DNA from: Thermothelomyces thermophilus ATCC 42464
Lineage: Eukaryota; Ascomycota; Sordariomycetes; Sordariales; Chaetomiaceae
NCBI RefSeq assembly: GCF_000226095.1
Contig: NC_016477.1
Location: 3,286,001-3,350,000 of the forward strand
Direction: 5' to 3'
Length of the DNA: 64,000 bases
The position numbers and the translations under genes were made by a program. This document shows positions 19,127-58,649 of this stretch, one piece after another (position 1 is the stretch's first letter; each line of letters opens with the position of its first letter). Under the pieces are notes generated by a model. That model was not told where the DNA came from, made no database searches, and saw only the letters and a program-made list of their open reading frames with translations.

Positions 19127-19244
19127 AGCAAAAGGAAGCTAGTAAAAGAAGGACATTACCTACTAGGGAAAAGGAGGGTATTAGTAGTATTTAAAACAAG
19201 TTATAAGAAGCTTTCAGGTTAAAAGCCCTAAAGAAGGGGCATCG

Positions 19245-20907: not shown

Positions 20908-21557
20908 ATGTCTCGTGTAGCAAAGCGTTCGATAAAAAGGTCTGTAAAGACCGAGGAGCATATTGCCCTAGCTACTACTATTAACGAGCTAGGGTTCAAA
21001 GTGATGCCTTGTTCTTTTTGTTTTTCTCGCGGCCTCTGTTGCCGTATAATAGAGAGTTCTTCTTGTTATGGCGAATATGTTTATCATAGGAGGTTATACG
21101 ACGGTTCTAGGGTTCTAGTCTCGTCTTGTCGGTGTTCCCTTATTAGTATATTTTTCCTATACTAACTTCCATAGTATCCTATATTATAGACGAATTAAAG
21201 CGCCTCGACCAATTAGAACAAGATGCTAAGGAGGCTCTTTATACCGACCGCAATTCGTTAGCAAAAGCGTAGCGTCGTCTAGATAAGTCTCTAGCTCGTT
21301 TGGACCGTATTTGTCGTCAAAAGCGATCGTTGTTATTTCGAGGGTCGGAGATGGTTTGCTAGGGTCTTACGTCTTTGGATAAATTAGAAGAGGTGGAGCA
21401 GCAGGAATTGGGGGCGGCTCTAGGTGTATAGCTCAATGGTAGCGTTAACGTTATTAACTAGGGCGCTATCTTCGATTCTGTCCCGGTTTTGCCTTTAGTT
21501 AATCTAGGTTCTGCCGGTAGAACTATTCCAGTTTCTTAAGGCAATTTAGGTTCTTGA
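20908..21557 (+). pseudogene. E3 antisense zinc-cluster / coiled-coil gene
   Basis: Plus strand, thus antisense to E3. ATG 20908, TGA 21555-21557. Exon 1 (20908-21127) is free of stops; a basic N-terminus leads to PCSFCFSRGLCC and a cluster with CX2CX6CX8CX2CX6C spacing, whose last three Cys read Tyr. Intron 21128-21174 (47 nt): 5' GTCGGT, branch-like CTAAC at 21162-21166, 3' CCATAG. Removing it gives 603 nt, exactly 201 codons. Exon 2 has four TAG codons and encodes a heptad-rich helix containing LDKLEEVEQQE and the tail AGRTIPVS. Overlaps the end of E3 pol. Confidence 0.78.
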
Positions 21558-28189: not shown

Positions 28190-28867
28190 ATAGTTAATTA
28201 TATTCTTAGGAATAGTCGTAATCTTAAGTATAAATAATATACTATTATAATTAAGATTAAGTAAGAGGGTTATAAGGTCGTTATACCTTATAAGCATTAT
28301 TAGAATATAAAGCCGCGAAAGCGTTATATAATAATAGAGGGTTTAAATAAGTGTTAGAACTATATTCGCATAGGCAAGAAGTATAGTAGCCTAAATATTA
28401 TAGATGCCTATAGGTTCCTTGTTATTTTCCTTCGTAATCCTAGATTACTAACTATCTTAGTCCTTTCGAATTTGTTAGAATAGGAAAAGGTTTTAAAAGA
28501 GATTACTAAGACCAAGGCGCTTTTTACTTAGATATTAAGCCGTTTAAGTCAATTACGTCGTTTGTAGCAATCCCTATACGATCGTGGTACCGAAGTTTTT
28601 CGTCGTGGTGTAGCTTATCTAGAGGAGGAGGAAGAACTAGATACTCCTCTGCTAATGTCGGAGATATAGACCTTCACGGGTTAGGCTTAGGTATTAGGTA
28701 CTTTTAATGTGCTTGATTAGGAGTTAATCGGGTTAGATCCTAGTCCTAATTCTAGCAGGTTCCCCTCTTTTTTTATTAGGGAATAGGCTTTAGAGCCGGT
28801 TCTTATAGCCGGTTAGGATTCTGCTAATAGAACTACTCTAGTTTCTTAGGGTAACTTAGGTTTTTAA
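28190..28867 (+). pseudogene. E4 antisense zinc-cluster gene (type B, no intron)
   Basis: Plus strand, antisense to E4. Start ATA (28190), TAA 28865-28867, 678 nt in one frame with only TAG/TAA interruptions and no TGA. Cysteine cluster at about 28285-28375: the readable core NKC.NYIRIGKKY has CX2CX6C spacing once Tyr is read as former Cys. The next part is a coiled coil (EITKTKAL...LSRLSQLRRL, YLEEEEELD), and the tail is NRTTLVS.GNLG. Best-preserved type B copy. Confidence 0.75.
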
Positions 28868-35152: not shown

Positions 35153-37515
35153 ATCTCGACGATATACTTATCTTCTCTAAGACGATAGACAAATACCGGA
35201 AGTATGTAAAAGTAGTACTAGATATATTATATATATATAAGCTATTAATTAATAAGGAAAAGAGCGAATTCTATTTTAAGAAGATAGTCTTTTTAGGATA
35301 CGAAATATCCTTAGGACAAATCTAAATAGAACCTTTAAAGGTTAAAGCTATTAAGAATTAGCTACAACTAACGTTAGTTATAGAAGTACGAAGTTTTATC
35401 GGATTTGCAAACTTTTACCAAATGTTCATTAGGAACTTTAGAACGATCGTATAACCTTTATACGAACTCACTAGGAAGAACGCTAAATTCTAATGGGAAG
35501 AATAGCACAAGTAAGCATTTACGTAGATTCGTAACGCCATTACTAAAGATCTAGTACTAGTACTACCAGACCCTAAGAAGCCATTTAAGGTAGAAACGGA
35601 CGCTTTAGACTATGCTATCGGAGGACAATTAGGATAACAAGACAAATAAGGGAAGCTATATCTTATAGCCTTCTTTTTAAAGAAGCTCGATAGACTATGT
35701 CTTAACTATCTAATCTATAATAAGGAACTACTTACAATTATCGAAACTTTTAAAGAATAGCGACTATACCTTAGCGATATAATTAAATTGGTATAAGTAT
35801 ATATAGATTATAAGAATTTGCAATACTTTATAACGACGAAGGAGCTTAACGGACGACAAATATAATAGGTAAAATTCCTCGCGAAATTTAACTTTAAGAT
35901 CCGCTATAAGAAGGGTAAAGAGAACGTATAAGCGGATATCTTAAGCCGACAAATGGATTATATAGAAGGACAAATGGAAATAATACTATCGTTGTTTAAG
36001 GAACGAACAGACAGAACGCTATATTACGAAACGTAGATACCTATAGAAGATAATCTACTTAACCCGTTCCTAGAATATTATATAATCTTTCGAGAAGAAA
36101 GGATCAACGAGATATAATATTAAGTAGCACCCGGACTACTAGTACCTAACGGAGTAGAAGAAAGAGATAGGAAACTCTAGTACCGAGGTAAAGCATATAT
36201 CTACGACAAAGATCAATAGCTACGGATGATTCGAGAACTCTACGAGTCGAAACTTAGAGGATATAAAGGAGTTACGAAGACTATCGTATAAGTCAAGAAA
36301 CAGTATGACTTTCCATAGTTAATGGTATAAGTTAAGGAAGTCGTATGGAACTATAACATTTATAATCGAAGTAAAACGGTATAATATAAGCTATATAGGC
36401 TACTTTAGCTACTACTAATAGCTGACAAACTATAGAGCTTAGTCACGATAGACTTCATTACAAAGCTACTAAAATCTAAGGATACAGCTATAGGAGTGAT
36501 CTATAATAGTATCCTTACTATAGTAGATTACCTAACTAAATAAGTATACTTCTTTCCCTATAAAGAATCCTAGATAGCTAAATAGCTAGCAGATATAATC
36601 TATTGGCAAGTAGCATTAGTATATGCTTAGCTATAAGAATAGATTACCGATAGAGATACTAAGTTTATATTAAAGTTCTAGCAAGCGTTAATATAACGAT
36701 TAGGCGTTAATAGTAAGCTATTAATAGCATATTACCTATAGACTAATAGATAACTAGAGCGACTAAATCAAGTTATTAAGTAGTATCTCTATTCTTACAT
36801 TAACTACTAGTAAAACGACTAGGTTATACTATTACTAATAGTATAACTCGCTTATAATATAACGCTAACGGAAACGACTAAAGTTATACCGTTCTTTACA
36901 AACTATAGATATAAAGCAGACCTTAAGCAAGGACTAGAGGTCACGGTGCCAAGAGCAGTAGTTAAAGCAGAACAAATATACGCACTATATAAGAAACTTA
37001 AAAAGGAACTTAAGTTTATTAGGACTAGAATAAAAAATTACTACGACAAATATAGGCTCGAGGGACCTTGCCTAGAGAGGGGAGACAAAGTTTACCTGAT
37101 CGTACAAAACTTACGAACCAAATGACTAAGCATAAAGCTAGACTTTAAGAAGGTCAGACCCTTCGTTATCAAAGAACGAATTTCGACATCTAACTATTAA
37201 CTATCGTTACTATTATCTATATAACTATAGACGGATGTTTTTTATATTTCACTTCTCGAACTAGTACCGAAAAACGCTAAGGTTGCTATATATATTAAAG
37301 TAGAGGACAAAGAGGAAGAATAGGACGTCGAAGAAATTCTAAATATATATATTATTAATAGAGAACTATAGTACCTAGTTAAATAGCTTGATTTTAGATT
37401 AGAAGATAACTTATAGAAACCTATTAAGAACCTAAATTACCTTAAGAAACTAGAGCAGTTCTACTAGTAGAATCCTAACCGGCTATAAGAACCGGCTTTA
37501 AAGCCTATTCCCTAA
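35153..37515 (+). pseudogene. pol: E7 pol, right part: RT palm to chromodomain
   Basis: Resumes RT after E4 with LDDILIFSKTIDKYRK: the catalytic DD of RT is intact here. RNase H (VETDALDYAIGG near 35590), the integrase finger region, and the catalytic blocks (VTIDF near 36440, ITDRDTKF near 36650) follow. The third block reads .LERLNQ. The chromodomain lies near 37320-37440. Many TAG/TAA codons. Confidence 0.82.
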
Positions 37516-38101
37516 TAGAAAAAGAGGGGAACCTACTAGAATTAGGACTAGGATCTAACCTAATCGACTCCTAATTAAGCACGTCAAAAGTACCTAATGC
37601 CTAAGCCTAACCTATAAGGGTCTATATCTCCGATATTAGCAAAGGAGTATCTAGTTCTTCCTCCTCTTCTAGACAAGCTACGCTACGACGAAAAACTTCG
37701 GTACCACGATCGCGTAGGGATTGCTATAAACGATGTAATCAACTTAAATGGCTTAGCGTCTAAGCAAGTAACGCCTTAGTCTTAGTAATCTCCCTTGAAA
37801 CCTTCTCTTGCTCCGACAAATTTGAAAGGACTAAGATAGTTAGTAACCTAAGACTATAAAGGAAAATAACAAGGAACCTATAGGTATCTGTAACGTTCGA
37901 ACTACTATACTTCTTGCCTATACAAATATAGTTTTGACACTTATTTAAACCCTCTATTATTATATAATGCTTTCGTAGCTTTATATTCTAACAATACTTA
38001 TAAGGTATAGCGACCTTATAACCCTCTTGCTTAATCTTAATAGTAATAGTATATCGTTTATATTTAAGATTATAATAATTCCTAGGAATATAATTAGCTA
38101 T
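37424..38101 (-). pseudogene. E7 antisense zinc-cluster gene (type B)
   Basis: Minus strand, ATA start (38101), TAA at 37426-37424, 678 nt, the same length as E2 and E4. The cluster around 37990-37920 and the coiled coil around 37840-37640 align with E4. Interrupted by TAG/TAA only, as far as I can follow it. Confidence 0.7.
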
Positions 38102-38216: not shown

Positions 38217-38646
38217 TGTGACGAACCCAACTCAGACTTCTTCTAAAAGGGTTCAGACGAAGGTAGATTAAGCGGGACAGGCAGGCAGGTCGTCTAAGGG
38301 ATTCGGTGAAGCCAAAGGGTTTACAACAACACTTAGAGTTGTCTCTTACAGTAATTAGCAATGCTTAGTATAAGTACTATAATTGTGATTGTTACCATTG
38401 GTGAACTTCTAGAGTTCGCTAGAACGAGTGACTATATACAATTTCCTTCCCCCTAGTCTTCTTCTAGATCTTTGGATCATTACTATAATCTAATGATCTA
38501 ACTTACTAGATTATATTGGCGTCCTAATGATCTATCTAGGATCATTCCTCGGTCCTAATGATCTGTTCCTAATTAGCTATATATCCGTTGCCTATAATTG
38601 GTTCTACGTGCCCTGCTAGGTTGCCTTATACGGCTAAATCGTAACA
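38217..38646 (-). repeat. E5 3' LTR (subfamily C)
   Basis: 430 bp, reverse strand, ending AAATCGTAACA. R-U5 is shared with the other LTRs, but U3 (about 38440-38646) is different. It holds several GATCATT / AATGATC half-sites (38470-38560) and two ATTGG (CCAAT) motifs. Confidence 0.92.
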
Positions 38647-38662
38647 CGATGCCCCTCCTCCA

Positions 38663-38684
38663 GGTCTTTCGTCCTCGAAAGACC
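38663..38684 (-). other. E5 hairpin beside the polypurine tract
   Basis: GGTCTTTCG TCCT CGAAAGACC, a 9-bp stem. Relative to E1 and E6 (GGCTTTCG / CGAAAGCC) one base was gained in each arm and pairing is retained, which argues for selection on the structure. Confidence 0.65.
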
Positions 38685-38692
38685 CAGGTTCG

Positions 38693-38701
38693 TTTTAAAT
38701 A
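38693..38701 (+). promoter_or_regulatory. Possible TATA box of the E5 antisense gene
   Basis: TTTTAAATA lies 78 nt before the antisense ATG (38779). The corresponding site in E6 is TTTCAAATA (39663-39671), 70 nt before its ATG, followed in both by GCGCCAAC. Position and A/T core would suit a core promoter; this is inference only. Confidence 0.35.
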
Positions 38702-38778
38702 GCGCCAACGTCCTATATTTGTAAGTAGTTACGTTTCTAGCCTTTCCTTTCTCTTCTTTCCTTCGCAATGTTACTACA

Positions 38779-39185
38779 ATGGCTAACCATGTAAAGAAGA
38801 GGTCGAAGTCTCGCAATTTCCATCTGAAGTCCCTCCGGCGCTTCGAGTTAATTTAATTGATTCTCCGTACGCCTACCCTCATGCAGCGTCCGTGTTCTTT
38901 CTGCGAGTCTCGCAAGTTGTCTTGCAAGGTGTCGGCTTCCGATTCTTCTCGTTATCTCAAATACGTTCGTCGCGGCCAGTCTTAGTGCGATATATTTAGG
39001 ATTTCGGTTTAGCAACTTAATCAAATCGTTTTGCAGTATGACAAGCTTAAGGCTAAGATGGAAAAGGCTAAGGCTGAGTTAGCGGCATCTATAGCAAAGG
39101 TCAACTGTTTATACCTCTAAAAGCGAATGTGGTTCGAGAAAATGACACAGGCTATCGCTCGGGGTATTGATAGTATAGAGGAGTT
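38779..39185 (+). pseudogene. E5 antisense zinc-cluster gene, N-terminal part
   Basis: ATG 38779, one frame to the E6 insertion at 39185. Basic N-terminus (MANHVKKRSKSRNF), then PCSFCESRKLSC and YVRRGQS.CD: a six-cysteine cluster with two Cys read as Tyr and a TAG (from TGG or CAG) before the last Cys. A coiled coil follows directly (QYDKLKAKMEKAKAELAAS) in the same frame, so no intron is needed. The frame resumes at 46745. Total 657 nt = 219 codons with stop. Confidence 0.8.
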
Positions 39186-39613
39186 TATGACGAACCCAAC
39201 TCAGACTTCTTCTGAAAGGGTCCAGACGGAGGTGGATTGAGCGGGACAAGCAGGCGGGTTGTCTAAGGGATTCGGTGAAGCCAAAAGGTTCACAATAACA
39301 CTTAGAGTTGTCTCTTATAGTAATTAACAATGCTCGGTATAAGTACTGTGATTGTGATTGTTACTACTGGTAAACTCCCAGAGTCCACTATAACGAGTGA
39401 CTATTTATATGTATATATACTCCTAGGATCACTAGCAGTCGTGGTGATCATTTATACTAGCTTACCTGGCTTATATCGTGAGCTAGTGATCCTCTGTTAG
39501 GATCATTTCTTGCCAAGCGTGATCCCGTCCTGATTAGTCCATCATTCCTTCGGCTTGATTGGCCCGTTCGTGCCAGTGGCTTAGGCGGCATCTATATACA
39601 TATTTCCGTGACA
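39186..39613 (-). repeat. E6 3' LTR
   Basis: 428 bp, reverse strand. Starts TATGACGAACCC (RIP form of TGTGACG) and ends CCGTGACA. GATC-core half-sites lie at 39424-39525 and CCAAT-type boxes near 39530-39570. Next come the reverse polypurine tract and the hairpin GGCTTTCG/CGAAAGCC (39631-39649). Confidence 0.93.
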
Positions 39614-39740
39614 CGATGCCCTCCCTCCGAGGCTTTCGACCCGAAAGCCCTCTTTTAGGCCGTTTCAAATAGCGCCAACATCCTTTCCATGTATACCTCG
39701 TAATTTTTTCCCTTTTCCTGTACTACTAGTGACTGACAAG

Positions 39741-40401
39741 ATGGCAGATCGTGTTTCTAAGCGCCGATCTTCGAAATCCCAACAGCGCGCCGCGCTTGCT
39801 TCTTTTATTGATTCTTCTGGCGTGGACGTCATACCGTGTTCGTGGTGTTTTAAGCGGAACTTAGCTTATTATATGGCGTTAGGCTCTTCTTGCTGTAGCG
39901 AGTGCGTACGTCGGGGTCGTTCTTACGATAGTTCCGACGTAGCGTCTGCTTGTTCGTAACCTGGTTTATTGCCTTAATGTTTGTAGCTGATTCTTTATAG
40001 TAACGAAGATTATGTCTGAACAAAAGCGTGTAGAACAAGAAGAGGCCGATGCTAAAGAGGCCCTTTTTGTCCTTCAGACTTAACTTCAGACGGCTGTCGG
40101 TCGATTAGCTCGTCTTCGTCGCCAGAAACGTTTCTTGAAGGAGCAGGGTTCCGAGCTGTTTCGTCAAGGCATGCAGTCTCTAGAGGAAATAGAGGCGGAA
40201 GAACGGAGGGTACGGGAGTCCGAAGTACGCGTTATTAGTGATGTACGGTCCTAGGGTGCTAACATCCTGTTTGACTGGTCTTCTTTGGGCCTAGATTTGT
40301 CGGAGGCCGACTTGGCCGTTTTGTCCGAGCCAGTGCCTACGGTCGATCCGGGTTCTGCCGGTGGAACTGTTCTAGTTTCTCAGGGCAGTTCAAATTCTTG
40401 A
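39741..40401 (+). pseudogene. E6 antisense zinc-cluster / coiled-coil gene (best copy with intron)
   Basis: ATG 39741 (MADRVSKRRSSK...), TGA 40399-40401. Exon 1 to 39951 has no stop and encodes a basic N-terminus and a CX2CX6CX8CX2CX6C cluster (PCSWC ... SECVRRGRSYD) with the third and sixth Cys turned into Tyr. Intron 39952-40000 (49 nt), 5' GTTCGT, branch-like GCTGAT, 3' TTTATAG, phase 1. Removing it gives 612 nt = 204 codons. Exon 2 has two stops only (TAA 40081, TAG 40252) and encodes a long charged helix (EQEEADAKEALF ... RLARLRRQKRFL ... SLEEIEAEERR) and the tail GSAGGTVLVS. The last 140 nt or so overlap pol. Role unknown; a GAL4-type DNA-binding protein is the closest analogy. Confidence 0.82.
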
Positions 40402-43400
40402 CTAGTTCCTATGAGTTGTCTTCTAGTCCAAAATCAAGCCATTTGACCAGGTACTACAGTTCCCTGTTAATAATGCGTGAATCTAGAATTTCTTCGACGT
40501 CCTATTCTTCTTCCTCGTCTTCTGCTTCGATGTACGTAGCAACCTTAGCGTTTTTTGGTGCTGGTTCGAGAAGCGAAATATGAAAAACATCCGTCCGTAG
40601 GCGCATAGATGACGGTAACGATAGTCGGTAGTTAGATGTCGAAATTCGTTCTTTGATAACGAAGGGTCCGACCTTCTTGAAGTCTAGCTTCGTGCTTGGT
40701 CGTTTGGTTTGTAAGTTTCGTACGATTAGGTAGACTTTGTCTCCCCTCTCTAGGCGAGGTCCCTCGAGCCTGTGTTTGTCGTAGTAGTTCTTCATTCTGG
40801 TTTTGACAAACCCGAGTTCCTTCTTGAGCTTCTTATGCAGTACGTGCATCTGTTCTGCTTTGACTGCTGCTCTCGGCACTGTGACCTCTGGTCCTTGCCT
40901 AAGGTCTGCTTTATATCCGTAGTTCGTAAAGAACGGTATGACTTTAGTCGTTTCTGTTAACGTCGTGTTATAGGCGAGTTATACTACTAGTAATAGTATG
41001 ACCTAGTCGTCTTGCTAGTAGTTAACGTAAGAACGGAGATACTGCTTAACAACTTAGTTTAGTCGCTCCGTTTGTCTGTCAGTCTGTAGGTAATATGCCG
41101 TTGACAGCTTGCTATTGACGCCTAATCGTTGCATTAACGCTTGCCAGAACTTCGATGCGAACTTGGTGTCTCTGTCGGTAATCCATTCTTATGGCCAAGC
41201 ATGCACTAATGTAACTTGCCGATAGATTACGTCTGCCAACTGTTCCGCTGTCTAGGACTCCTTGTAGGGAAAGAAGTATGCCTATTTAGTCAGGTGATCT
41301 ACTATAGTAAGAATACTATCATAGGTCACTCCTGTGGCTGTATCCTTAGATTCTGGCAGCTTTATGACAAAGTCCATCGTAACTAAACTCCATGGTTTAT
41401 CAGCTGTTGGTAGTGGCTAAAGTAGCCTGTACGGCTTGTATCGTGCCGTTTTGCTCCGATTGCAGATATCGCAGTTCTGTACGACTTCCTTGACTCGTAT
41501 CGTTAACTGTGGAAAGTTGTAGTGTTTCTTGACTTGTACGACAGTCTTCGTAACTCCTTTGTATCCTCCGAGTTTCGACTTGTAGAGTTCTCGAATCATC
41601 CGTAGCTATTGATCTTTATCGTGGATGTATGCTTTGCCTCGGTACTAGAGTTTCCCATCTTTTTCTTCCACTCCGTCAGGTACCACTGGTCCGGGTGCTG
41701 CTTGATACTATGCCTCGTTAATCCTTTCCTCTCGAAAGATTGCGTAGCATTCTAGGAACGAGTCAAGTGGATCATCTTCTACAGGTGTCTACGTTTCGTG
41801 ATGCAGCGTTCCGTCTATTCGTTCCTTGAACAATAGTAGTATTGTTCCCGTTTGTCCTTTCGTATGATCTGTTCGTCGGCTTAAGATATCTGCTCGTACA
41901 TTCTCTTTGCCCTTCTTGTAGTGGATCTCAAAGTTGAATTCCACGAGGAATTCTGCCTATCGTATTTGTCGTCCGTTGAGTTCCTTTGTCGTCGTGAAGT
42001 ATCGCAGGTTCTTATAATCCGTATACACTTGTACCGGTTCAATCGTGCCACTGAGGTATAGTCGCCATTCCTTAAAGGCTTCGACAATCGCAAGTAGTTC
42101 CTTGTCATGAATCGGATAATTAAGACGTAGTCCGTCGAGCTTCTTTGAAAAGAAGGCTACAGGATATAGCTTCCCTTGTTCGTCTCGTTATCCCAATTGT
42201 CCTCTGATGGCGTAATCTAAAGCGTCTATTTCTACCTCGAATGGCTTCTTAGGGTCTGGCAGTACTAGTATTGGGTCTTCGGTAATGGCGTTCTGGATCT
42301 ACGTAAATGCTTGCTCGTGTTATTCTTCCCATTGGAATTTAGCATTCTTCTTGGTAAGTTCGTATAAAGGTCGTACGATCGCTCTAAAGTTCCTGATAAA
42401 TATCCGGTAGAAGTTTGCAAATCTGATGAAGCTTCGTACTTCCGTGACTGACGTCGGTCGTGGCCAATTCTTGATAGCTTTAACCTTTGAAGGTTCCATC
42501 CGGATTTGTCCTGGGGATATCTCGTATCCTAGAAATACCGTTTTCCTAACGTGGAATTCGCTCTTTTCCTTGTTGACTGATAGCTTGTACGCGTGTAGCG
42601 CGTCTAGTACTACTTTCACGTGCTTCCGGTGTTTGTCTATCGTCTTGGAGAAGATGAGTATGTCGTCGAGATAACATACCGCAAATTTGTCGAGAAAGGG
42701 TCGGATAGCTTGATCAATCAGGGCTTGGAACGTTGCCGGCGCGTTCGTAAGTCCGAATGGCATGACGAGGTACTTATAGTGGCCATAGGGTGTCCTAAAG
42801 GCCGTTTTCCACTCGTCGCCTTCTTTGATCCGTATATAGTTGTAGGCCGATGGCAAGTCAAGACGCGTGAAATATTGGGCTCCTGCCAACTGATCTCGGA
42901 GCCATGAGATCAGCGGTAACAGGTATCGGTTTTTCACGGTCTGTTCGTTAAGTTGCCAATAGTCGACGTATAACCGTAGCTTTCCGTCTTTCTTAGGCAC
43001 AAACAGGATTAGGTAGCCTGCTAGCGATGTCGACGGGTAGATATGTCCTCTTCGAAGGTTCTCCTCCAAATATCGCTTAAGTTCTTCGTTCTGTGTCTAG
43101 CTTGTATAGTAAATCTTGAAGAACTTCAGTCGTGCTCCTTCCTTGAGCTTGATCTCGTAATCCTATAGGCCGTATTCTGGTAGTCCTTCTAGATGTTTCG
43201 GTTCGAATGCTAGGTGTCCTTCGTATTCCTTCGGTACTTCCCTAGTCTTGTCTCGTCTCTCGGTTTTCTAGTAGTATACGAACTTGGTTCCGTCTATGGC
43301 GATACTAGCGATTTCTCCTGTCTCAACCTACTGCTCCTATTGTAGTGCTCTACATTCGTTAACAGAGAGAACAGCTATCGGCGATTTAGCTCGTTCCTCC

Positions 43401-44062
43401 TGTCGCGATATTAATGTCGTTATGCCGCCTCTTCCAGAGTCCGTAGTGGTCTGCCTGCCACTGTCTGTCTCTTGCGGTAGATCCGTAGGACATGCCTTTC
43501 CTCGAGCATCGTCCTCTCGCGATCCTTGCGCGCTCCCTATCTCGCTAGTCGAATACGACTCCGTTCGGGGTCGCAGGTAGCCACCATTCTTCTAGCTAAT
43601 GTCCGGGTCGTAATCTTCATGCTATGGTAACCCTAATATCATATCTTTATCGTTGCCTATGTCTACGATGCTAAATACGACTGCTGTGGTCTTCCCTACT
43701 ATAGTGATGTCGATCGGTTCGGTCTCTCTACGTACCTATTACGTCGGAAATGGCCCTTTGACTATGCTATGCTTCCGCTTCATTCTCTAGGGTATCCGTA
43801 GCTAATTTACAAGTGTCGGCGAAATTAGGTTCATCTCTGCTCCACTATCCACTAGTGCGAGCATTTCGTGCCGTTTCCATTATGCTATTATCCACAGTCG
43901 CTTGTCTTGCCGCCGTCGTCCAAAGATTACGGCGATTTCCCATGTTTCTGCCGGGAGGTCTCGGTATAGTAGTCTCTTGCGCTAGTTCCTCCTGTACTGC
44001 GCTACCACTCGCCGCTACACAGGCGTTAATGGTTTTCGGGCCCCTCGAAGGGCCCTGACCCG
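40259..44062 (-). pseudogene. pol: E6 pol
   Basis: Minus strand, entered by -1 shift at 44068-44062. Protease has LVDSGAEMNLISP near 43850. A stop-free piece, 43069-42320, covers RT from GYLILFVPKKDGKL through CYLDDILIFSK (intact YLDD near 42675) into the RNase H connection. RNase H near 42250, integrase finger near 41600-41440 (HX..H, CDICNRSK with both Cys present), the DDE core to about 41050, GPF near 40665, chromodomain about 40520-40400. The remaining frame has a few TAG/TAA codons. The most complete pol of the window. Confidence 0.92.
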
Positions 44063-46284
44063 TTTCCCAGGTCAGTACTAACCTCTTCGGTTGTTCGGCT
44101 AATAGCGGCTTTGTCGATCGTGCTCATTTCCGTAAGCCATTAGGTGCTTACGGCTTCCTACCATTGGGTCCGTTCTGCTTTCTGTCGTACGTACCATAGC
44201 TTCGTCTAAAGCTCCCGAATTCGCAATTTCTTTTCGTCCGCGTGATAGAGGTAATTGTTACTCTAGCACGAGTCCTATATGTCTCGTCCGATTCCGCAGT
44301 GCCTAGGCCAGGCTCGTCTTAGAACTATCATGATGCTTTCTAGATCGCGGGCTTCGATCTTCCAGAGCAATTTGGCCGCTCTGTTTCCTGCATCGTAGAC
44401 CTATTCTACAGGGTACAAGCCTCCGTCCCTGTTTTCCTATCGGGTCGGCCAGTGATTGTTTTCGAATTTGTCGCGGAAGTGATATCGGCATTCGTGTATT
44501 ATACACTGGAACCAGGGCACTTGCGCATGTGCCTCGTGTCACGGGTACAGTCGCGTAGCGTCGCCTGGAAGGTATTAGAACTCTTTCCCGAATCCTTCCC
44601 ATTGTACGTGGACCGTAGGTACTCTAGTGCTGAGATAGGAGTGTTTCTTCTAGTAACTTTCCCACGTACGCTCGTCTTTCCCGCGATTCGCTCGCATAAA
44701 CTGGTATTCTGGGTTCCGCACGTCGTTGCTGAGTTGCTGGCCGTCACGATACTCGGTGTAGCTATCAGGCCTATCATATGTCACGGGCTGTTCTCCTTTG
44801 ATAGTTTCTATAATACGTTAGAGTTCCCTTATTTCGTCCTTCATCTCATCGCTCTACTAGGCAAGTCAAGTCAAGCGCCTATCCTATTCGCGCAGTTCTG
44901 TGTTAAGTCGGAAAACTTCGTTATAGTACCATTCGATTCATTCCTAGAGGAATAGAGCATTAGGTCCGGGTCTTTCGATTCCTTGGGTGTCGGTTGTCCA
45001 CGATCTATCCCGCCTCTGCGTGATTGTGAAACCCTACTGCCTTAAGGCTAGGAGAATCGAAATTGGCGGTATATACTCTCCTGCCGTGTCCTATTCGGCG
45101 AGACCTGTCTCTAGATCCACAGTGACCAGTTCGGAGTATAGTGCTTTGTCTTTACCGTTGCCGTCGTATCCGAGACTATCTGTGTCACTGCCCTTGTCTT
45201 TGTAGCTCGTAGCCGCTACTTCGATAACGTCCTTAGTAGTTTCGTCGATAGCCGTAATTTCCTTCCTAGGGGTTAGTTTCCATTCTTTCTTTAGGCTCCG
45301 GCATTCTCGCTTATAGTGCCCTTTCTTTCTATAGTTATAACAGGTGACATTAGACTTGTCTTTGGTCGTCTTCTTCTGATCCTGCTTCTGCGCTGCGTCT
45401 ATATCTATGGCTCTGGGGTACGTCCCGTACGAGGTACTAACGTACGCTCGCTTTTTCTTGTCGTTGGCCTTAACCGTGGTTCCGTTCATTCGACCTCGTT
45501 TCTGCTGCTCTCGTATGTAGAGTCGATCATCGATTCTGATGGCCTATACGATGTATTCGTCCAGGGTCTCAGGCCGGTCGTACTTATATAGCTCGTCCTT
45601 GACCTTTTCCTTCAGGCCATTGTAGAACAATTGCATTAGTGCCTTATCATTAAGCTGAGACTTGAGCATGTCCTATCTAAACTATATAGCGTAGGAGGCT
45701 ACTGACTTAGTCTGTCGAAGATTAGCGAGTCTTTCTTGCGTATAAATCTTCTTATCTTTATCGCCGAAAACCTTTCGAAGCTCTTCTTCGAAACGGTCGT
45801 AAGATTAGAAGACTACCTATATGAATGCGTCTCGGTCGTCTTTGTCTTCCTTAATGAGATAGTCGTTCCATGTAGGCTCGAACCATCTAAGTGCCTTGCC
45901 CTCTAGTCTCGTGGCTACGTAGAGGACTTTGGCTTTGTCGTCCGGAAACTTGTCGTTATTAAGCCGGAAGTAGGATCGGAGGTTTGTCAGGAATCCTACG
46001 AGATCCTCCTTGGTTCCTCTGTATTTACCAGGTAGTTCGATCTTGATACGGCTCGCCTTGGCAGTCTCGAGCGCTTCGATTTTGGCATAGGCCTCGTTGA
46101 CCAACTTCTGCGAGTACTTTTCGCGATTCTCGAGTTCCTTGATTCGAGCTTGAGTAGCCTTATCTCTCTAGTCCAACTCCTAGATCTGCTGCTAGAGTTA
46201 ACCAAGCTAAGTAAGCAGCTGTTCGGCCGTGACGTCGGTAGCCATGTCGATATCGAGGTCGAAGTCTCCTCCGTTCTGAACTAT
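44026..46284 (-). pseudogene. gag: E6 gag with extra segment
   Basis: Start ATA (46284), TAA 44028-44026, 2259 nt, one codon shorter than the other copies (3-nt deletion near 45145). Long open parts cover capsid (46104-45817: coiled coil, LEGKALRWFEPTWNDYL) and the knuckle region (45489-45091: CYNYRKKGHYKREC, second Cys read as Tyr). TAG and then GAC ACG stand between Gag core and extra segment, so no ATG restart exists in this copy. Confidence 0.88.
44038..44068 (-). promoter_or_regulatory. E6 gag-pol -1 frameshift signal (unmutated)
   Basis: On the minus strand GGGAAAC (44068-44062), spacer GGGTCA (44061-44056), then GGGCCC TTCGA GGGGCCC (44055-44038), a stem of up to seven pairs. The heptamer is in phase with gag, and the pol frame is -1. 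Confidence 0.85.
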
Positions 46285-46298
46285 AACAGAACAAAGGG

Positions 46299-46309
46299 AG
46301 TGGTAACAA
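46299..46309 (-). promoter_or_regulatory. E6 primer-binding site, self-priming
   Basis: Plus-strand AGTGGTAACAA, two bases from the LTR edge (46312), exactly complementary to TTGTTACCACT at 46484-46494 in the E6 5' LTR. Both partners are unmutated here. Confidence 0.75.
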
Positions 46310-46311
46310 CG

Positions 46312-46739
46312 TGTGACGAACCTAACTCAGACTTCTTCTAAAAGGGTCTAGACGGAGGTAGATTAAGCAGGACAAGCAGGCGGGTCGTCTAAGGGATTCG
46401 GTAAAGCCAAAGGGTTCACAACAACACTTAGAGTTGTCTCTCACAGTAATCAACAATACTCGGTATAAGTACTGTGATTGTGATTGTTACCACTGGTGAA
46501 CTCCCAGAGTCTACCATAACGAGTGACTATTTACATGTATATATACTCCTAGGATCACTAGCAGTCGTGGTGATCATTTATACTGGCTTACCTGGCTTAT
46601 ATCGTGAGCCAGTGATCCTCTGTTGGGATCATTTCTTGCCAAGCGTGATCCCGTCCTGATTGGTCCATCATTCCTTCGGCTTGATTGGCCCGTTCGTGCC
46701 AGTGGCTCAGGCGGCATCTGCATGCATATTTCCGTGACA
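46312..46739 (-). repeat. E6 5' LTR
   Basis: 428 bp, reverse strand, matching 39186-39613 apart from transitions. U3: two ATTGG boxes (46659, 46683 region), GATC-core half-sites at about 46553-46655. Followed by TSD GAGTT. Confidence 0.93.
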
Positions 46740-46744
46740 GAGTT

Positions 46745-46994
46745 GGAGCGAGTAGAGCGTAAGGAGGCTAAGGCGGCAGCAGCAGCAGAAACTTCTAGAG
46801 TTACTATGTCTTCTTTAACCCTATCTCGCCTGTCCGCCGATTTTGGACAGCTTTAGGATACTATATATCCTGAAGTTCCTTTAGATCTATCCTTGCTAGC
46901 CGATTTCGGGTTAGTCTCTAGTTCGTCGCTCTCGGCTGATTAGGGTTCCTCTGGTAGAACTGCTAAAGTTTCTTAGGGCAATTTAGGTTCTTAA
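46745..46994 (+). pseudogene. E5 antisense gene, C-terminal part
   Basis: Continues the frame broken at 39185: ...EEL|ERVERKEAKAAAAAE..., then a Ser/Leu-rich stretch and the tail SGRTAKVS.GNLGS ending at TAA 46992-46994. The five-base TSD was removed to join the halves. Stops inside are TAG only. Tail and coiled coil match E1, E3 and E6, so the gene predates the split of the subfamilies. Confidence 0.78.
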
Positions 46995-49900
46995 CAGGTT
47001 CCTATGAGTTATCTTCTAGTCCGAAGTCGAGCTATTTAACTAGATATTATAGTTCTCTGTTGATAATACGTGAATCTAGAATTTCTTCGACGTCCTATTC
47101 TTCCTCTTTGTCCTTTACTTCGATATATATAGCAACCTTAGCGTTTTTCGGTGCTAGTTCGAGAAGTGAAATATAAAAAACATCCGTCTATAGTCGTATA
47201 GATAATAGTAACGATAGTCGGTAGTTAGATGTCGAAATTCGTTCTTTAATAACGAAGGGTCCGACCTTCTTAAAGTCTAGCTTTATGCTTAGTCGTTTGG
47301 TTCGTAAGTTTCGTGCGATTAGGTAGACTTTGTCTCCCCTTTCTAGGCAAGGTCCCTCGAGCCTATGTTTGTTGTAGTAGTTCTTTATCCTCGTTTTGAC
47401 AAACTCGAGTTCCTTTTTGAGCTTTTTATATAGTACGTACATTTGTTCTGCTTTGACTGCTGCTCTCGGCACTATGATCTCTAGTCCTTGTCTAAGGTCT
47501 ACTTTATATCCGTAGTTTACGAAGAATAGTATAACCTTAGTCGTTTTTGTTGGTGTCGTGTTATAAGCGAGCTATATTATTGGTAATAGCATGACCTAGT
47601 CGTCTTATTGGTAGTTAATATAAGAACGAAGATACTATTCGACGACTTAGTTTAGTCACTCCGTTTGTCTATTGGTCTGCGGGTAATATACTGTTAATAG
47701 CTTACTATTAACGCCTAATCGTCGTATTAACGCTTGCTAGAATTTCGATACGAACTTGGTATCTCTATCGGTAATCTATTCCTATAGCCAAGCGTACACT
47801 AATATGACTTGCTAATAGATTACGTCTGCTAGCTATTCCGCTATCTAGGACTCCTTATAGGGAAAGAAGTATACCTATTTAGTTAGGCGATCTACTATAG
47901 TAAGGATACTATTATAGATTACTCCTATAGCTATGTCCTTAGATTCTAGTAGCTTCGTAATGAAGTCCATCATAACCGAACTCTATAGTTTGTCAGGTAT
48001 TAGCAGTGGCTAAAGTAGCCTATACGGCTTATGTCGTGCTGTTTTGCTTCGGTTGCAGATATCGTAGCTTCGTACGACTTCCTTAACTTGTACCGTTAAC
48101 TGTGGAAAGTCGTAGTGTTTCTTGACTTGTGCGACAGTTTTCGTGACTCCTTTATGTCCTCCGAGTTTCGATTCGTAGAGCTCTCGAATCATTCGTAGCT
48201 ATTAATCTTTGTCGTAGATATACGCTTTGCCTCGGTACTAGAGTTTCCCATCTCTTTCTTCTACTTCGTTAGGTACTGGTGGTCCGGATGTTGCTTAATA
48301 CTATACCTTATTGATCCTTTCTTCTTAAAGGATTACGTAACATTCTAGGAACGAGTTAAGTGGATCGTCTTCCACGGGTGTCTACGTTTCGTGATATAGC
48401 GTTCTGTCTATTCGTTCTTTAAATAACGGTAGCGTTATTTCCATTTGTCCTTCCATATAATCCGTTTGTTGGCTTAAGGCGTCCGCTTGTATATTCTCTT
48501 TGCCCTTCTTATAGCGGATCTTAAAATTGAATTTTGTAAGGAATTCTACCTATTATATTTGTCGTCCGTTAAGCTCCTTTGTTGTCGTAAAGTATCGCAA
48601 ATTCTTATGATCCGTATACACTTGTACTGGTTCAATCGTACCACTAAGGTATAGTCGCCATTCCTTAAAAGCTTCGACAATCGTAAGTAGTTCCTTGTCG
48701 TGGATTAGATAATTAAGACGTAGTCTATCGAGCTTCTTTGAAAAGAAGGCTACAGGATGTAGCTTCCTTTATTCGTCTCATTGTCCTAATTATCCTCCAA
48801 TAGCATAGTCTAAAGCGTCCGTTTCTACCTCAAATAGCTTCTTAGGGTTTGGCAGCACTAGTACTAGATCTTTAGTAATGGCGTCACGGATCTGCGTAAA
48901 TGCTTGCTTGTGTCGCTCTTCCCATTGGAATTTAGCGTTCTTCTTGGTAAGTTCGTACAAAGGTCGTGCGATCGCTCTAAAGTTCCTGATAAACATCCGG
49001 TAGAAGTTCGCAAACCCGATGAAACTTCGTACTTCTGTGACTAATATTGGTTATAGCTAATCCTTGATAGCTTTAACCTTTGAAGGTTCTATCTGGATTT
49101 GTCCTAGGGATATTTTGTATCCCAAAAACACCGTTTTCCTAACGTGGAATTTGCTCTTTTCCTTGTTAACTAATAGCTTATACACGTATAGTACGTCTAG
49201 CACTGCTCTTACGTGCTTCTAGTGTTCGTCTATTATCTTGGAGAAGATAAGTATATCATCGAGATAATATACCGTAAATTTGTCAAAAAAGGGTCGGATA
49301 GCTTGATCAATTAGGGCTTAGAACGTTGCTAGTACGTTCGAAAGTCCGAATGGCATGACGAGGTACTTATAGTAGCTATAGGGTGTCCTAAAGGCCGTTT
49401 TCTACTCGTTACCTTCTTTGATCCGTATATAGTTATAGGCCGATGGCAAGTCAAGACGCGTAAAATATTAGGCTCCTGCTAACTAATCTCGGAGCCATGA
49501 GATTAGCGGTAACAGGTATCGGTTTTTCATAGTCTGTTCGTTAAGTTGCCGATAGTCGATATATAACTATAGCTTTCTATCCTTCTTAGGCATAAATAGG
49601 ATTAGGTAGCCTGCTAGCGATGTTAACAGGTAGATATATCCTCTTCGAAGGTTCTCCTCTAAATACCGCTTAAGTTCTTTATTCTATATCTAGCTCGTAT
49701 AGTAAATCTTAAAGAACTTTAGTCGTGCTCCTTCCTTAAGCTTGATCTCATAATCCTATAGGCCGTGTTCTGGTAATCCTTCTAGATGTTTCGGTTCGAA
49801 TGCTAGGTGTCCTTTATATTCCTTTAGTACTTCCCTAGTCTTGTCTCGTCTCTCGGTTTTCTAATAGTATACGAACTTGGTTCCGTCTATAGCGATACTA

Positions 49901-50655
49901 GCGATTTCTCCTATCTTAACCTACTGCTCTAGTTATAGTGCTCTATATTCGTTAACGGAGAGAATAGCTATCGACGGTTTAGCTCGTTCCTCCTGTTGCA
50001 TCGTCGTTGTCGTTTTGCCGCTTCTTCTAGAGTCTGTAGTAGTCTGTCTGCCACTGCCTGTCTCTTACGGTAGATCTATAGGATATGCCTTTCCTCGAGC
50101 ATCGTCCTCTCGCGATCTTTACGTGCTCCCTATCTCGCTAGTCGAATACGACTCCATTTAGGGTCGTAGGCAGCTACCATTCTTCTAGCTAATGTCCGGG
50201 TTATAATCTTCATGCCATAGTAACCCTAATATTATATCTTTGTCGTTACCTATATCTACAATGCTAAATATAACTACTGTGGTTTTCCCTGCTATAGTGA
50301 TATCGATTAGTTCGGTCTCCCTACGTACCTATTACGTTAGAAATGGTCCTTTGACTATGCCATGCTTCCGCTTCATTCTCTAGGGTATCTGTAGCTAATT
50401 TACAAGCGTCGGCGAAATCAGGTTTATCTCTGCTCTACTATTTACTAGTACGAGCATTTTATGCTATTTCCATTATGCTGTTATCTATAATCGCTTGTCT
50501 TGCCGTTATCGTCTAAAAATTGCGGCGATTTCCTATGTTTCTGCCGGGAGGTCTCGATATAGTAGTCTCTTACGCTAGTTCCTCCTATACTGCGCTACTA
50601 CCTGCCGCTACGTGGGCATTAATGGTTTCCGGGCCCTTCGAAGGGCCCTAACCTG
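46860..50655 (-). pseudogene. pol: E5 pol
   Basis: Minus strand. Protease near 50440, RT with YYLDD-type palm block near 49265, RNase H to integrase (48996-48790 and 48192-48010 are stop-free), GPF and chromodomain near 47260-47000. Heptamer AGGAAAC (50661-50655) with the palindrome GGGCCCTTCGAAGGGCCC downstream. Disabled by TAG/TAA. Confidence 0.85.
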
Positions 50656-52880
50656 TTTCCTAGGTCAGTACTAACCTCTTTAATCGTTCGGCTAATAGCG
50701 GCTTTGTCTATCGTGCTCATTTCTGTAAGCTATTAAGTGCTTGCGGCTTCCTACTATTAGGTCCGTTTTACTTTCCGTCGTATATACTATAGCTTTATCT
50801 AAAGCTCCCGAATTCGTAACTTCTTTTCGTCTATGTAGTAGAGGCAATCGTTGCTCTAGCATAAGTCCTATATATCTCGTCCTATTCCGCAATACCTAGG
50901 CCAGGCTCGTTTTGGAACTATCGTGATGCTTTCTAGACTCCGGTCTTTAATCTTCCAAAGCAATTCGGCTACTCTGTTTCCTGTATCGTAGACCTATTCC
51001 ACCGGGCGTAAGCTTCCGTCCTCATTTCCTTGTCGGGTCGGCCAGTGATTATTTTCGAATTTGTCGCGAAAGTAGTATCGGTATTTATATGCCATACATT
51101 AGAACTAGGGCACTTGCGTATATGCCTCGTGTCGAGGGTATAATCACGTGGCGTTGCCTGGGAGGTATTGGAATTCTCTCCCGAATCCTTCCCACTATAT
51201 GTAGACCGTAGGTACTCTAATGCTAAGGTAAGAGTGTTTCTTCTAGTAGCTTTCCTACATATACTCGTCTTTTCCGCGGTTCGTATGTATAAACTAGTAT
51301 TTGGGGTTCTATATGTCGTAGCTAAGTTGCTAATCGTCAAAATACTCGGTATAGCTGTCAGGCCCATTATACGTTATAGGCTGTTCCCCTTTGATAGTTT
51401 CTATAATATATCAGAGTTCCCTTATCTCATCCCTTATTCTATTACTCTACTAGGTAAGTCGAATCAAGCGTTTATCCTGTTCGTATAGTTCCGTGTTAAG
51501 CTAGAAAACTTTGTTATAATACTATTCGATTCGTTCCTAGAGGAATAGAACATTAGGTCCAGGTCTTTCGATTCCTTAGGTATTGGTCGTCCACAATCTA
51601 TCCTGCCTCTAGGTAACTATAAAACCCTACTATCCTAAGGCCGGGAGAATCGAAGCTGGCGGTATATATTCTCCTGCTATGTCCTATCCGGCGAGACCTA
51701 TCTCTAGGTCTACAATGACCAGTTCGGAGTACAGTGCTTGTTCGTCTTTACCATTGCTATCATGTCTAAGACTATCCGTATTACTGTCCTTGTCTTTGTA
51801 GCTTATAGCTACTACTTCGGTAACGTTCTTAGTGGTTTTGTCAATATCCGCGATTTCTTTTCTAGGGACTAGCTTCTACTCTTTCTTTAGGCTTTGATAT
51901 TCTCGCTTATAGTGCCCTTTCTTTCTATAGTTATAGTAGGTAACATTGGACTTGTCTTTGGTTGTCTTCTTCTGGTCCTGCTTCTATGCTATGTCTATAT
52001 CTATAGCTCTAGGGTGCGTCCTGTACAAAGTACTAACGTACGTTTGTTTTTTCTTGTCGTTAGCCTTGACTATAGTTCTATTTGTTCGACCTCGTTTCTG
52101 CTACTCTCGTACGTAGAGCCGATTATCAATTCTAATAGCCTATACGATGTATTTATCTAAAGTCTTAGGCCGATCGTACTTATATAGCTTGTCTTTGACC
52201 TTTTCCTTTAGGCCGTTATAGAACAATTACATTAATGCCTCGTCGTTAAGTTAGGACTTAAATATATCCTATCTAAACTATACGGCGTAAAAGGCTACTA
52301 ACTTAGTCTGTCGGAGATTAGCGAGTCTTTCTTACGTATGGATTTTCTCGTCTTTGTCGCCAAAAACCTTCCGAAGCTCTTCTTTGAAATAGTTATAAGA
52401 TTAGAAGACTGCCTATATAAATACGTCTTAGTCGTCTTTGTCTTCCTTAGTAAGATAGTCATTCTACGTAGGCTCGAACTATCTAAGTGCCTTGCCCTCT
52501 AGTCTTGTAGCTATATAAAGGACTTTGGCTTTTTTGTCCGGAAACTTGTCGTTATTAAGCTAGAAGTAAGATTAGAGGTTTGTTAGGAATCCTACAAGAT
52601 CCTCCTTAGTTCCTCCGTATTTGCTAGGTAGTTCGATCTTAATACGGCTCGCTTTGATAGCCTCGAGCGTCTCGATTTTGGCGTAGGCCTTGTTAATCAA
52701 TTTCTGCAAGTACTTTTCGCCGTTCTCGAGTTCCTTGATTCGAGCTTGAGCAGCCTTGTCTCTCTGGTCTAACTCCTAGATCCGCTGCTAGAGTTGACCA
52801 AGCTAGGCGAGCAGTTATTTGGCCGTGACGTCGGTAGCCATGTTGGTGTCGAGGTCGAAGTCACCTCCGTTCTGAACCAT
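50619..52880 (-). pseudogene. gag: E5 gag with intact start codon
   Basis: ATG 52880 is intact, the only one among the gag copies whose start I can read, and defines the start for all. TAA 50621-50619, 2262 nt. Order: coiled coil, capsid, knuckle (YYNYRKKGHYKREY), extra segment. TAG GAC ATA stands at the boundary of the extra segment. Confidence 0.85.
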
Positions 52881-52894
52881 GATAGAACAAAGGG

Positions 52895-52905
52895 AGTGGT
52901 AACAA
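52895..52905 (-). promoter_or_regulatory. E5 primer-binding site, self-priming
   Basis: Plus-strand AGTGGTAACAA, complementary to TTGTTACCACT at 53080-53090 in the E5 5' LTR; both intact. Confidence 0.72.
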
Positions 52906-52907
52906 CG

Positions 52908-53337
52908 TATGACGAACCTAACTTAGACTTCTTCTAAAAGGGTTCAGACGAAGGTGGATTGAGCGGGACAGGTAGGCAGGTTGTCTGAGGGATTTGGTAA
53001 AGCCAAAGGGTTTATAATAACACTTAGAGTTGTCTCTTATAGTAATTAGCAATGCTTGGTATAAGTACTGTGATTGTGATTGTTACCACTGGTGAACTTC
53101 TAGAGTTCGCCAGAACGAGTGACTATATATAATTTCCTTCCCCCTAGTCTTCTTCTAGATCTTTGGATCATTACTATGATCCAATGATCTAACTTACTAG
53201 ATTATGTTGGCGTCCTAATGATCTATCTAGGATCATTCCTCGGTCCTGATGATCTGTTCCTAATTGGCCATGTATCCGTTGCCTGTGATTGGTTCTACGT
53301 GCCCCGCCAGGTTGCCTTATGCGGCCAAATCGTAACA
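52908..53337 (-). repeat. E5 5' LTR
   Basis: 430 bp, reverse strand, the same as 38217-38646 apart from transitions. Ends AAATCGTAACA, followed by TSD GGTAT and then the last two bases of E7's tract. Confidence 0.92.
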
Positions 53338-57200: not shown

Positions 57201-58000
57201 ACCAACAGATAAACGGAGCGACTAAACCAAGTTATCAAGTAATACCTCCGTTCTTACATTAACTATTAATAAGATAACTAGGTTATACTATTACTAATAG
57301 TATAACTCGCTTATAATATGACGCTAATAGAAATAACTAAAGTTATACTATTCTTTATAAACTATAAATACGAAGTAGACCTTAGATAAGGACCAAAGGT
57401 TATAATACCAAGAGCAGTAATTAAAGTAGAACAAATATATATACTATATAAGAAGCTTAAAAGGGAACTCGAGTTTATTAGAACCAAAATAAAGAACTAC
57501 TATAACAAATATAGGCTTAAGGGACCTTATCTAGGGAGGGGAGATAAAGTCTATCTAATTATATAAAACCTATAAACCAAATAACTAAGTATAAAGCTAG
57601 ACTTTAAAAAAGTTAGACCCTTTATTATTAAAGAACGAGTCTTAATATCTAACTATCGACTATTATTACCATCATCTATATAACTATAGATGGACGTTTT
57701 TCATATTTTACTTCTCGAACTAGCACCGAAAAACGCTAAGGTTACTATATATATCAAAGTAGAAGATAAGGAAGAAGAATAGGACATTAAAGAAATTCTA
57801 GATTCGTATATTATTAATAGGGAACTATAGTATCTAGTCAAATAGCTCGATTTTGAACTAGAAGATAACTTATAGGAACTAGTCAAGAACTTAAACTACC
57901 CTAAGAAACTAGAACAGTTCTACCGCCAGAACCTAGATTGACTATAGGCACCGGTTTAGACAAAATAACCAAGTCGGCCTCTAATAAATCTAGGCCTAAA
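54225..58000 (+). pseudogene. pol: F pol
   Basis: Protease near 54440, frameshifting 2-nt deletion near 55193, RT (YYLDN near 55610), RNase H (VETDALDYAIG near 56055), integrase and chromodomain (57781-57930). Stops throughout. Confidence 0.78.
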
Positions 58001-58649
58001 GAGGACCAATCAAACGGGACGTTAGCACCCTAGGACTATACGTCACTAATAACGCGTACTTCGGAATCCCGTACCCTCTGTTCTTCCGCCTCTATTTCCT
58101 CTAGAGACTATATACCTTAACGAAACAACTTAAAACCCTGCTCCTTTAAGAAACGTTTCTAGTAACGAAGACAAACTAATTGACCGATAGCCGTCTAAAG
58201 TTAAGTCTAAAGAACGAAAAGGGCCTCTTTAGTATTAGCCTCTTCTTATTTTACGCGCTTTTGCTTAGATATAATCTTCGTTATTATAAAAGATTAGCTA
58301 TAAACATTAAGGCGATAAATAAAGCTATAAATAAATAGACATTATATTAGAACTATCGTAAGAATAACCCTAATATATATACTTGCTATAGTAAGAAGAG
58401 CCTAACGTAACATTAAGGCGATAAATAGAGCTATAAATAAATAGACATTATATTAGAACTATCGTAAGAATAACCCTAATATATATACTTGCTATAGTAA
58501 GAAGAGCCTAACGTTATATAATAAGCTAAGTTCCGCTTAAAATACTATAAACATAGTATAATATCTATACTAGAAGAATTAATAAAAGAAGCAAGCGTAG
58601 TATACTATTAGGATTTCGAAGATCGGCGCTTAGAGATATAATCTACTAT
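57893..58649 (-). pseudogene. F antisense zinc-cluster gene with internal duplication
   Basis: Minus strand, start ATA (58649), stop TGA at 57895-57893. Cluster residues align with E6 (YFKRNLAYY...LGSS), but nearly all Cys read Tyr. A 106-bp tandem duplication (58305-58514) repeats the end of exon 1 and the intron. Coiled coil and tail follow. Confidence 0.65.
58305..58514. repeat. 106-bp tandem duplication
   Basis: 58305-58410 and 58411-58514 are nearly identical (I see one difference, AAATAAAG against AAATAGAG). The unit already contains RIP-type changes, so the duplication is younger than the mutation of this copy. Confidence 0.85.

Follow-up and report, generated by a model that had tools for sequence, protein, structure and literature searches.

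Genes that run antisense to the coding strand are already known from long terminal repeat (LTR) retrotransposons. One of them, brtn of the Boty-like retrotransposons of Botrytis cinerea, was reportedly described by Zhao et al. in 2011 (Virology 417:248). In the accessible parts of other articles, brtn is presented as an antisense additional gene of the Boty elements of Botrytis and Sclerotinia (PMC7264820; brtn also in PMC8365987, PMC4227169, PMC5987419). Antisense open reading frames (ORFs) between pol and the 3' LTR are also described for plant Ty3/gypsy elements, namely Grande (gene23), RIRE2 and Retand (TRP28), in the available sections of PMC7264820 and PMC11963269, and what such genes do in LTR elements is stated there to have stayed open (PMC7264820). 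For human T-cell leukemia virus type 1 (HTLV-1), the antisense gene HBZ is characterized, in the part of the source at hand, as coding for a spliced, LTR-driven nuclear regulator with a basic leucine zipper (bZIP) dimerization part (PMC10186651). Here, an antisense gene was analyzed that is carried by Ty3/gypsy-type retrotransposons in a 64,000-nucleotide stretch of the Thermothelomyces thermophilus ATCC 42464 genome (contig NC_016477.1, positions 3,286,001 to 3,350,000; hereafter the window). It shares with brtn, as far as the excerpts of the brtn articles go, the antisense orientation, the location between pol and the 3' LTR and a fungal host element with a chromodomain in pol (PMC7264820, PMC8365987, PMC4227169, PMC5987419); this comparison is one of position and orientation, made from the descriptions of brtn alone. 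Its zinc-cluster, spliced form appears to be new among the literature searched. By term search, the words zinc and intron are absent from the main texts of PMC7264820 and PMC11963269, and neither 'antisense' nor 'zinc' occurs in the main text of a survey of fungal LTR elements (PMC3248453); among the papers listed by literature searches that covered few subscription papers, none dealt with a zinc-cluster or spliced antisense gene in a fungal element.

The sequence comparisons support an antisense gene that is real, under selection and carried by the elements; it codes for a Zn2Cys6-like coiled-coil protein that has homologues in other genera. The copy that served as reference lies on the plus strand of the inner, group b element (39186..46739, minus strand). 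Exon 1 (39741..39951) encodes a basic N-terminus and a six-cysteine cluster (cysteine codons 39837-39926, from a Cys/Tyr codon tally), the putative intron (39952..40000) is 49 nt long and in phase 1, and exon 2 (40001..40401, stop codon 40399-40401) encodes a coiled coil and a tail. The start codon is 127 nt away from the 3' LTR, and an A was found at position -3 of the start codon in 4/4 window copies looked at. A hidden Markov model (HMM) of 25 public proteins matched exon 1 with profile positions 1-68 (39741-39944) and exon 2 with positions 71-196 (39997-40398). One member of the model, P0002, is the f type of this same genome; no other member exceeds 80% identity with it. When all six frames of the window were searched at E <= 0.01, the model matched at eight places, all antisense to pol, and nowhere else. 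A sequence-only reading of this DNA had placed an antisense frame between pol and the 3' LTR in every subfamily, and in fact 8/8 delimited elements carry the gene with an HMM match.

To follow the frame through copies damaged by repeat-induced point mutation (RIP), the genome (38,744,216 bases, 7 contigs) was searched at the DNA level, with at least 40 matches per list, and 99 readings were sorted into five groups with one window copy each (b, 30; d, 30; f, 16; a, 6; g, 17). Codons with a stop in all copies of a group were recorded for each frame, no consensus being built. In group b, frame 0 has no such fixed stop before column 217 and frame 1 has none from about 248-251 to the end at 659. 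Group d is clear in frame 0 to 256 and then in frame 2 to 648, with an exon 1 that is stop-free in 30/30 copies, and group f is clear in frame 0 to 304 and in frame 1 from 242 to 644. By this test groups a and g are not open, as four (n=6) and seven (n=17) internal stops, respectively, are fixed in all sampled copies. An open reading was sought in each sampled copy of groups b and d and none was found; 7 of the 16 f copies are open over 196 codons when spliced, and 18 exon-2 matches in the genome contain no stop. The seven open f copies (loci L070-L073, L075, L076 and L078) have identical exons and introns that differ only in the length of a T-run, which suggests a recent spread of the group f subfamily. 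The interruptions had been attributed to RIP, and correctly so: in b, d, f, a and g the stops are TAA or TAG, plus 17 TGA in total, and at these positions other copies have CAA, CAG, TGG, CGA or CGG and, once, TAC. At stop positions of b, d, a and g, CGG and CGA occur in other copies beside CAG, CAA and TGG, so that RIP-like transitions seem to have taken place at CpG as well as CpA.

Between cluster and coil the reading switches to another frame in groups b, d and f, as an intron would give. The b intron reads GTTCGT...CTRAY...TATAG and is 49 nt long (50 nt in 7/30 copies) and in phase 1; the final AG is present in 27/30 copies, the branch-point motif in 30/30, and the first two bases are GT in 20/30 copies and AT, as RIP of TG would give, in 10/30. 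The d intron (GTCAGT, GTTAGT or GTCGGT...TACTAAC...AG, 47-48 nt) and the f intron (GTAAGC...poly-T...CTGAT...TTCTAG, 54-70 nt) are likewise in phase 1. Over the 76 copies of these groups, AG was found in 73, YTRAY in 76, and GT at the 5' end in 53; the remaining 23 have AT, a change that RIP makes in TGT. Indel columns are concentrated in the introns (25/168, versus 7/1806 in the exons). The public record P0002 equals the protein predicted from the spliced f reading over all 196 residues, and among the matches listed from a genome protein search (217 matches) all break at residue 68-72. Some metagenome models (P0006, P0031) have an extra stretch at the exon junction. Taken together, in three of the five groups (b, d and f) the gene has the look of two exons spliced across one short intron of fungal type. 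Such an intron could be kept by the element because the genomic RNA, being antisense to the gene, does not show its splice signals.

Fungal zinc-cluster proteins follow the Zn2Cys6 consensus CX2CX6CX5-12CX2CX6-8C. Counting tyrosine codons as RIP-changed cysteine codons had led to the spacing CX2CX6CX8CX2CX6C, and both the procedure and the spacing proved right. At the six cluster positions only Cys or TAY codons were found in b (180/180 codons, 30 copies), f (96/96, 16 copies) and a (36/36, 6 copies), and in 179/180 codons of d (30 copies), where two positions have Cys in just 1/30 copies. The gene starting at 38779 has the spacing CX2CX6CX9CX2CX7C in common with its public relative P0030. For group g, the proposed pattern CX2CX8CX8CX2CX6C remains a guess, with Cys in 0/17 copies at two of the six positions. 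Of 49 proteins that were fetched, 24 agree with the consensus, the spacing being 2-6-8-2-6 in 23 of them and 2-6-9-2-7 in P0030. The remaining 25 have altered cysteines, or are fragmentary or incomplete in this region.

Protein searches were carried out over 5.8 billion proteins, with 8000 candidates scored in the widest one. They gave one match for exon 1 alone, 16 at E <= 1 and 46 at E <= 0.01, and homologues with six cysteines occur in six other genera. The sources are Chaetomium globosum, Canariomyces, Corynascus, Parathielavia, Thyridium, Apiospora, a Cordyceps sp., T. thermophilus itself and metagenomes; none of the 46 homologues is named as Botrytis, and the one scan made of viral contigs contained no relatives. 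In Corynascus and Chaetomium, read-through models have tails that weakly resemble antisense pol sequence from about the corresponding position (E 0.003, 0.37 and 0.018 in a small search). CHGG_04275 of C. globosum and a Canariomyces protein bear the UniRef name Zn(2)-C6. The finding of an element-borne gene of this kind suggests that fungal genome annotations include short 'Zn(2)-C6' genes which belong to retrotransposons and ought to be left out when host regulators are counted.

Selection on the protein was assessed from transversions, since RIP makes transitions only, in pairs among groups b, d and f, with groups a and g left out (6 copies in a; no clear exon limits). Outside the pol overlap, where each group pair has 143-156 aligned codons, transversions at codon positions 1, 2 and 3 were 0.270, 0.171 and 0.357 in a protein-guided alignment of the 76 copies, and 0.281, 0.177 and 0.354 in a DNA-only alignment of four copies per group (12/76) that had 96% of bases in phase. 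In each of the three single pairs tested, the 95% limits of the difference between positions 3 and 2 lie above 0. The frame of the antisense gene has an amino-acid identity of 0.42, versus 0.22-0.35 in the five other frames, two of which, both reverse, are also uneven by codon position because the same sites are read backwards. Fourfold sites have transversion values of 0.429 (b-d) and 0.544 (d-f), but only 0.247 for b-f. A ratio of nonsynonymous to synonymous substitution near 1 outside the overlap, which the sequence-only reading had named as fatal to its proposal, does not agree with third positions being the most variable, and the comparison indicates that the antisense frame is under protein selection there.

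The overlap itself behaves differently. The pol of the inner element ends, on the minus strand, with SH3_Tf2-1 (62.7 bits) and a chromodomain (40358..40498; Pfam Chromo 33.4 bits, cut-off 25.1; stops read as X), the feature by which Ty3/gypsy chromoviruses are recognized, and judging from its last fixed stops the pol frame extends to about 40238, across the antisense tail at 40238-40401. In b, d and f, 40-54 codons at the end of pol and in the tail thus form a double-coding stretch on opposite strands. Transversions in the overlap are 0.222, 0.157 and 0.123 at antisense positions 1, 2 and 3, a pattern in which pol dominates. The tail shared by the subfamilies, proposed as a mark of the family, is indeed present; since pol governs the overlap, however, it is confounded with the chromodomain opposite, and pol accounts for at least some of the likeness.

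Antisense frames opposite genes are often open. Accordingly, the frame might be a by-product with no protein made from it, its openness being due to pol on the opposite strand, to common descent and to a base composition shifted by RIP; the tail opposite the chromodomain, with antisense third positions that are not more variable (0.123), speaks for this account. It is refuted for the codons outside the overlap, where the constraint was measured from transversions only, and the intron signals, the frame change across them, the clustering of indels there and the intron-free public models from several genera leave it highly improbable overall. Alternatively, the antisense transcript alone might matter, forming double strands with genomic RNA that feed silencing while the protein is incidental, as the accessible text of PMC7264820 reports to have been proposed for plant-element antisense ORFs. 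Protein-level constraint and a kept intron are unexpected if only the RNA counts, and we give this account a slim chance.

The preferred explanation is that of an element-borne antisense gene whose protein enters the nucleus, binds DNA as a dimer and tunes the transcription or silencing of the element; we assign it a probability of roughly 0.6. The gene is an accessory one opposite gag-pol, placed between pol and the 3' LTR, beginning just internal to the latter and running with its tail into the antisense of the chromodomain. A separate antisense mRNA, probably started in or beside the 3' LTR and spliced, would yield a product of about 196-220 amino acids with a basic N-terminus, a Zn2Cys6-like cluster and a long helix. 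This putative architecture is that of small proteins that bind DNA as dimers, and no activation domain is evident in it. This protein may go to the nucleus, bind zinc and, as a dimer, DNA, and might then act on the element's own transcription or silencing, up or down, in the manner of antisense regulators of some retroviruses. In a structure prediction, Zn2Cys6 factors alone were returned in a 20-chain comparison, at low Z, and a helix was predicted at residues 67-150 whose length would fit a dimeric coiled coil. No further domain was found in the protein of about 200 amino acids. Single RIP-hit exons gave nothing useful against Pfam, matches by sequence in the PDB look like coiled-coil chance, and NCBIfam and PHROGs gave nothing convincing. 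A regulatory role of the protein is likely. A more specific version is put forward tentatively, at somewhat under even odds: Sordariomycete retrotransposons would encode their own spliced Zn2Cys6-like dimer, with the basic loop shifted into the cluster's second half and an mRNA from the 3' LTR, that controls sense transcription.

Several observations weigh against the regulatory explanation. The Pfam Zn_clus (PF00172) cut-off of 21 bits was not reached, the best family score being 18.1 bits (E 0.0028), with 18/25 family members matching at E <= 10. The usual basic recognition loop is absent from the first half of the cluster, which scores no better than shuffles: between the second and third cysteine 1.57 K/R were counted in 23 family proteins versus 4.0 in 39 true Zn_clus domains of the same genome (2.96 in the second half of the family cluster). 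In a local profile-profile comparison with 20 host Zn_clus domains the cluster aligned out of register, first half onto second half, and the score of 23.7 stayed below the best of 60 Cys-fixed shuffles (25.3); the similarity in this comparison is due largely to the cysteines. In three LTRs the initial 230 nt show no enrichment of CGG triplets, as 209, 714 and 576 of 1000 shuffles reach the observed number. With regard to splicing, the unspliced reading loses the frame in 2 of the seven open f copies and keeps it in five, with 66 or 69 nt, and such f-type loci with an open unspliced frame are found among the matches listed; the open f copies alone are therefore no proof of splicing. Of the GAL4-type cluster and coiled coil in the sequence-only reading, a Zn2Cys6-like six-cysteine cluster and the coil stand, whereas a standard GAL4-type domain above the Zn_clus cut-off (18.1 versus 21 bits; 1.57 versus 4.0 K/R) does not. 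A true permutation with swapped halves was considered and dropped, both halves being nearer to canonical second halves and the predicted model aligning in order with 1cld.

The unusual first half, lacking the canonical basic loop, and an acidic activation domain that by eye is nowhere evident in the 196 residues, would also suit a nuclear protein with a task other than transcription regulation. Such a protein might, as a zinc-cluster dimer, act with the pol chromodomain, opposite which the gene lies, in guiding integration or contact with chromatin, or it might counter silencing. We consider this unlikely, though far from negligible, as the basic N-terminus, predicted Zn2Cys6-like fold and dimer coil make up the build of DNA-binding regulators, and antisense proteins of the HTLV type act on the LTR according to the consulted part of PMC10186651. 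Another origin would be a captured host gene that recently joined the elements and was kept by chance. Zn2Cys6 genes are abundant in the host (88 matches in the genome, all over the family cut-off). However, the gene is present in all eight window elements and has relatives in several genera, the subfamilies are so diverged that, at E <= 1e-5 and outside the tail, the b copy has a DNA match in the b-type copy at 57.9-58.6 kb alone, and the family is far from the 39 host Zn_clus domains, in which C3-C4 is 5 or 6 in 32/39 and 8, the family spacing, in 3/39. Recent capture is thus hardly credible. A coiled-coil protein with a zinc cluster, whose gene has retained its intron, is a candidate regulator open to direct test, and the splice junction is a built-in mark that would tell the antisense messenger from genomic RNA.

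The window as a whole is a nest of RIP-hit LTR elements. Eight, of the chromodomain Ty3/gypsy type, were delimited, with the left edge and 59.2-64 kb outside the delimitation. The inner element has its 3' LTR at 39186-39613 and its 5' LTR at 46312-46739 (self-BLAST of LTRs, flanks and ends) and is inserted, with a 5-bp target duplication (GAGTT at 39181-39185 and 46740-46744), in an outer group a element (38217..53337, minus strand; LTRs 38217-38646 and 52908-53337; 5-bp target duplication GGTAT). The interval 38779..40401, initially taken as one antisense gene, does hold antisense coding sequence, but covers the 3' ends of these two nested elements and two genes. The first part of the outer gene (38779..39185, plus strand; HMM profile 1-148 at 38779-39225) contains the N-terminus, the cluster and part of the coil, with no intron seen; its continuation past the insertion (46745..46994, plus strand; stop 46992-46994) has no HMM match on its own at E <= 0.01. 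HMM and frame tests located the group f gene of the plus-strand element at 4.6-12.1 kb (10918..11563, minus strand; exon 1 11356-11563, intron 11301-11355, exon 2 10918-11300) and the group d gene of the element at 20.36-27.89 kb (20908..21557, plus strand; exon 1 20908-21127, intron 21128-21174, exon 2 21175-21557). The heavily RIP-hit group g gene of the element at 12.1-19.7 kb (18480..19160, minus strand) matched profile positions 85-177 at 18518-18838 (E 2.2e-7). Further g-type copies are a coil part in the element at 20.09-34.97 kb (28484..28828, plus strand; E 2.7e-8) and the gene of element F (37466..38059, minus strand; profile 15-183, E 1.9e-7). The b-type gene of the plus-strand element at 53.6-59.2 kb (57883..58634, minus strand) was recognized by exon 2 (HMM E 5.1e-22; exon 1 unmatched) and a DNA match to b, and carries, where exon 1 ends, a tandem duplication of 106 nt with 99% identity (58303-58514). 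Between window subfamilies the first ~220-230 nt of the LTRs are alike and the remainder is often unlike, pointing to a possible common regulatory stretch.

In comparison with known systems, the protein resembles fungal Zn2Cys6 regulators (GAL4-type, PF00172) in six-cysteine spacing, predicted fold and a coiled coil after the cluster, and differs from them in scoring below the Pfam cut-off, in the missing first-half basic loop, in C3-C4 = 8, in its small size (~200 amino acids) and in being encoded by a retrotransposon. With the plant antisense ORFs, as presented in the available sections of PMC7264820 and PMC11963269, it shares position, orientation, occurrence in most copies and a suspected nuclear or DNA-binding role; these, however, belong to the protein family TRP28, said there to be restricted to flowering plants, whereas the present gene sits in a fungal chromodomain element. 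HBZ and APH-2 to APH-4 are, in the portion consulted, antisense genes started at the 3' LTR and spliced, as is proposed for the present gene, with a dimerization part in HBZ (PMC10186651). HBZ is a bZIP protein without a zinc cluster and its start in the 3' LTR has been demonstrated, while a corresponding start is conjectural here, and the likeness implies no relatedness. If the proposed regulator is real, its intron would be invisible in the genomic RNA, survive reverse transcription and be impossible to lose by the element's own cycle, and antisense regulators of the HTLV type would have in this gene a convergent counterpart from fungi.
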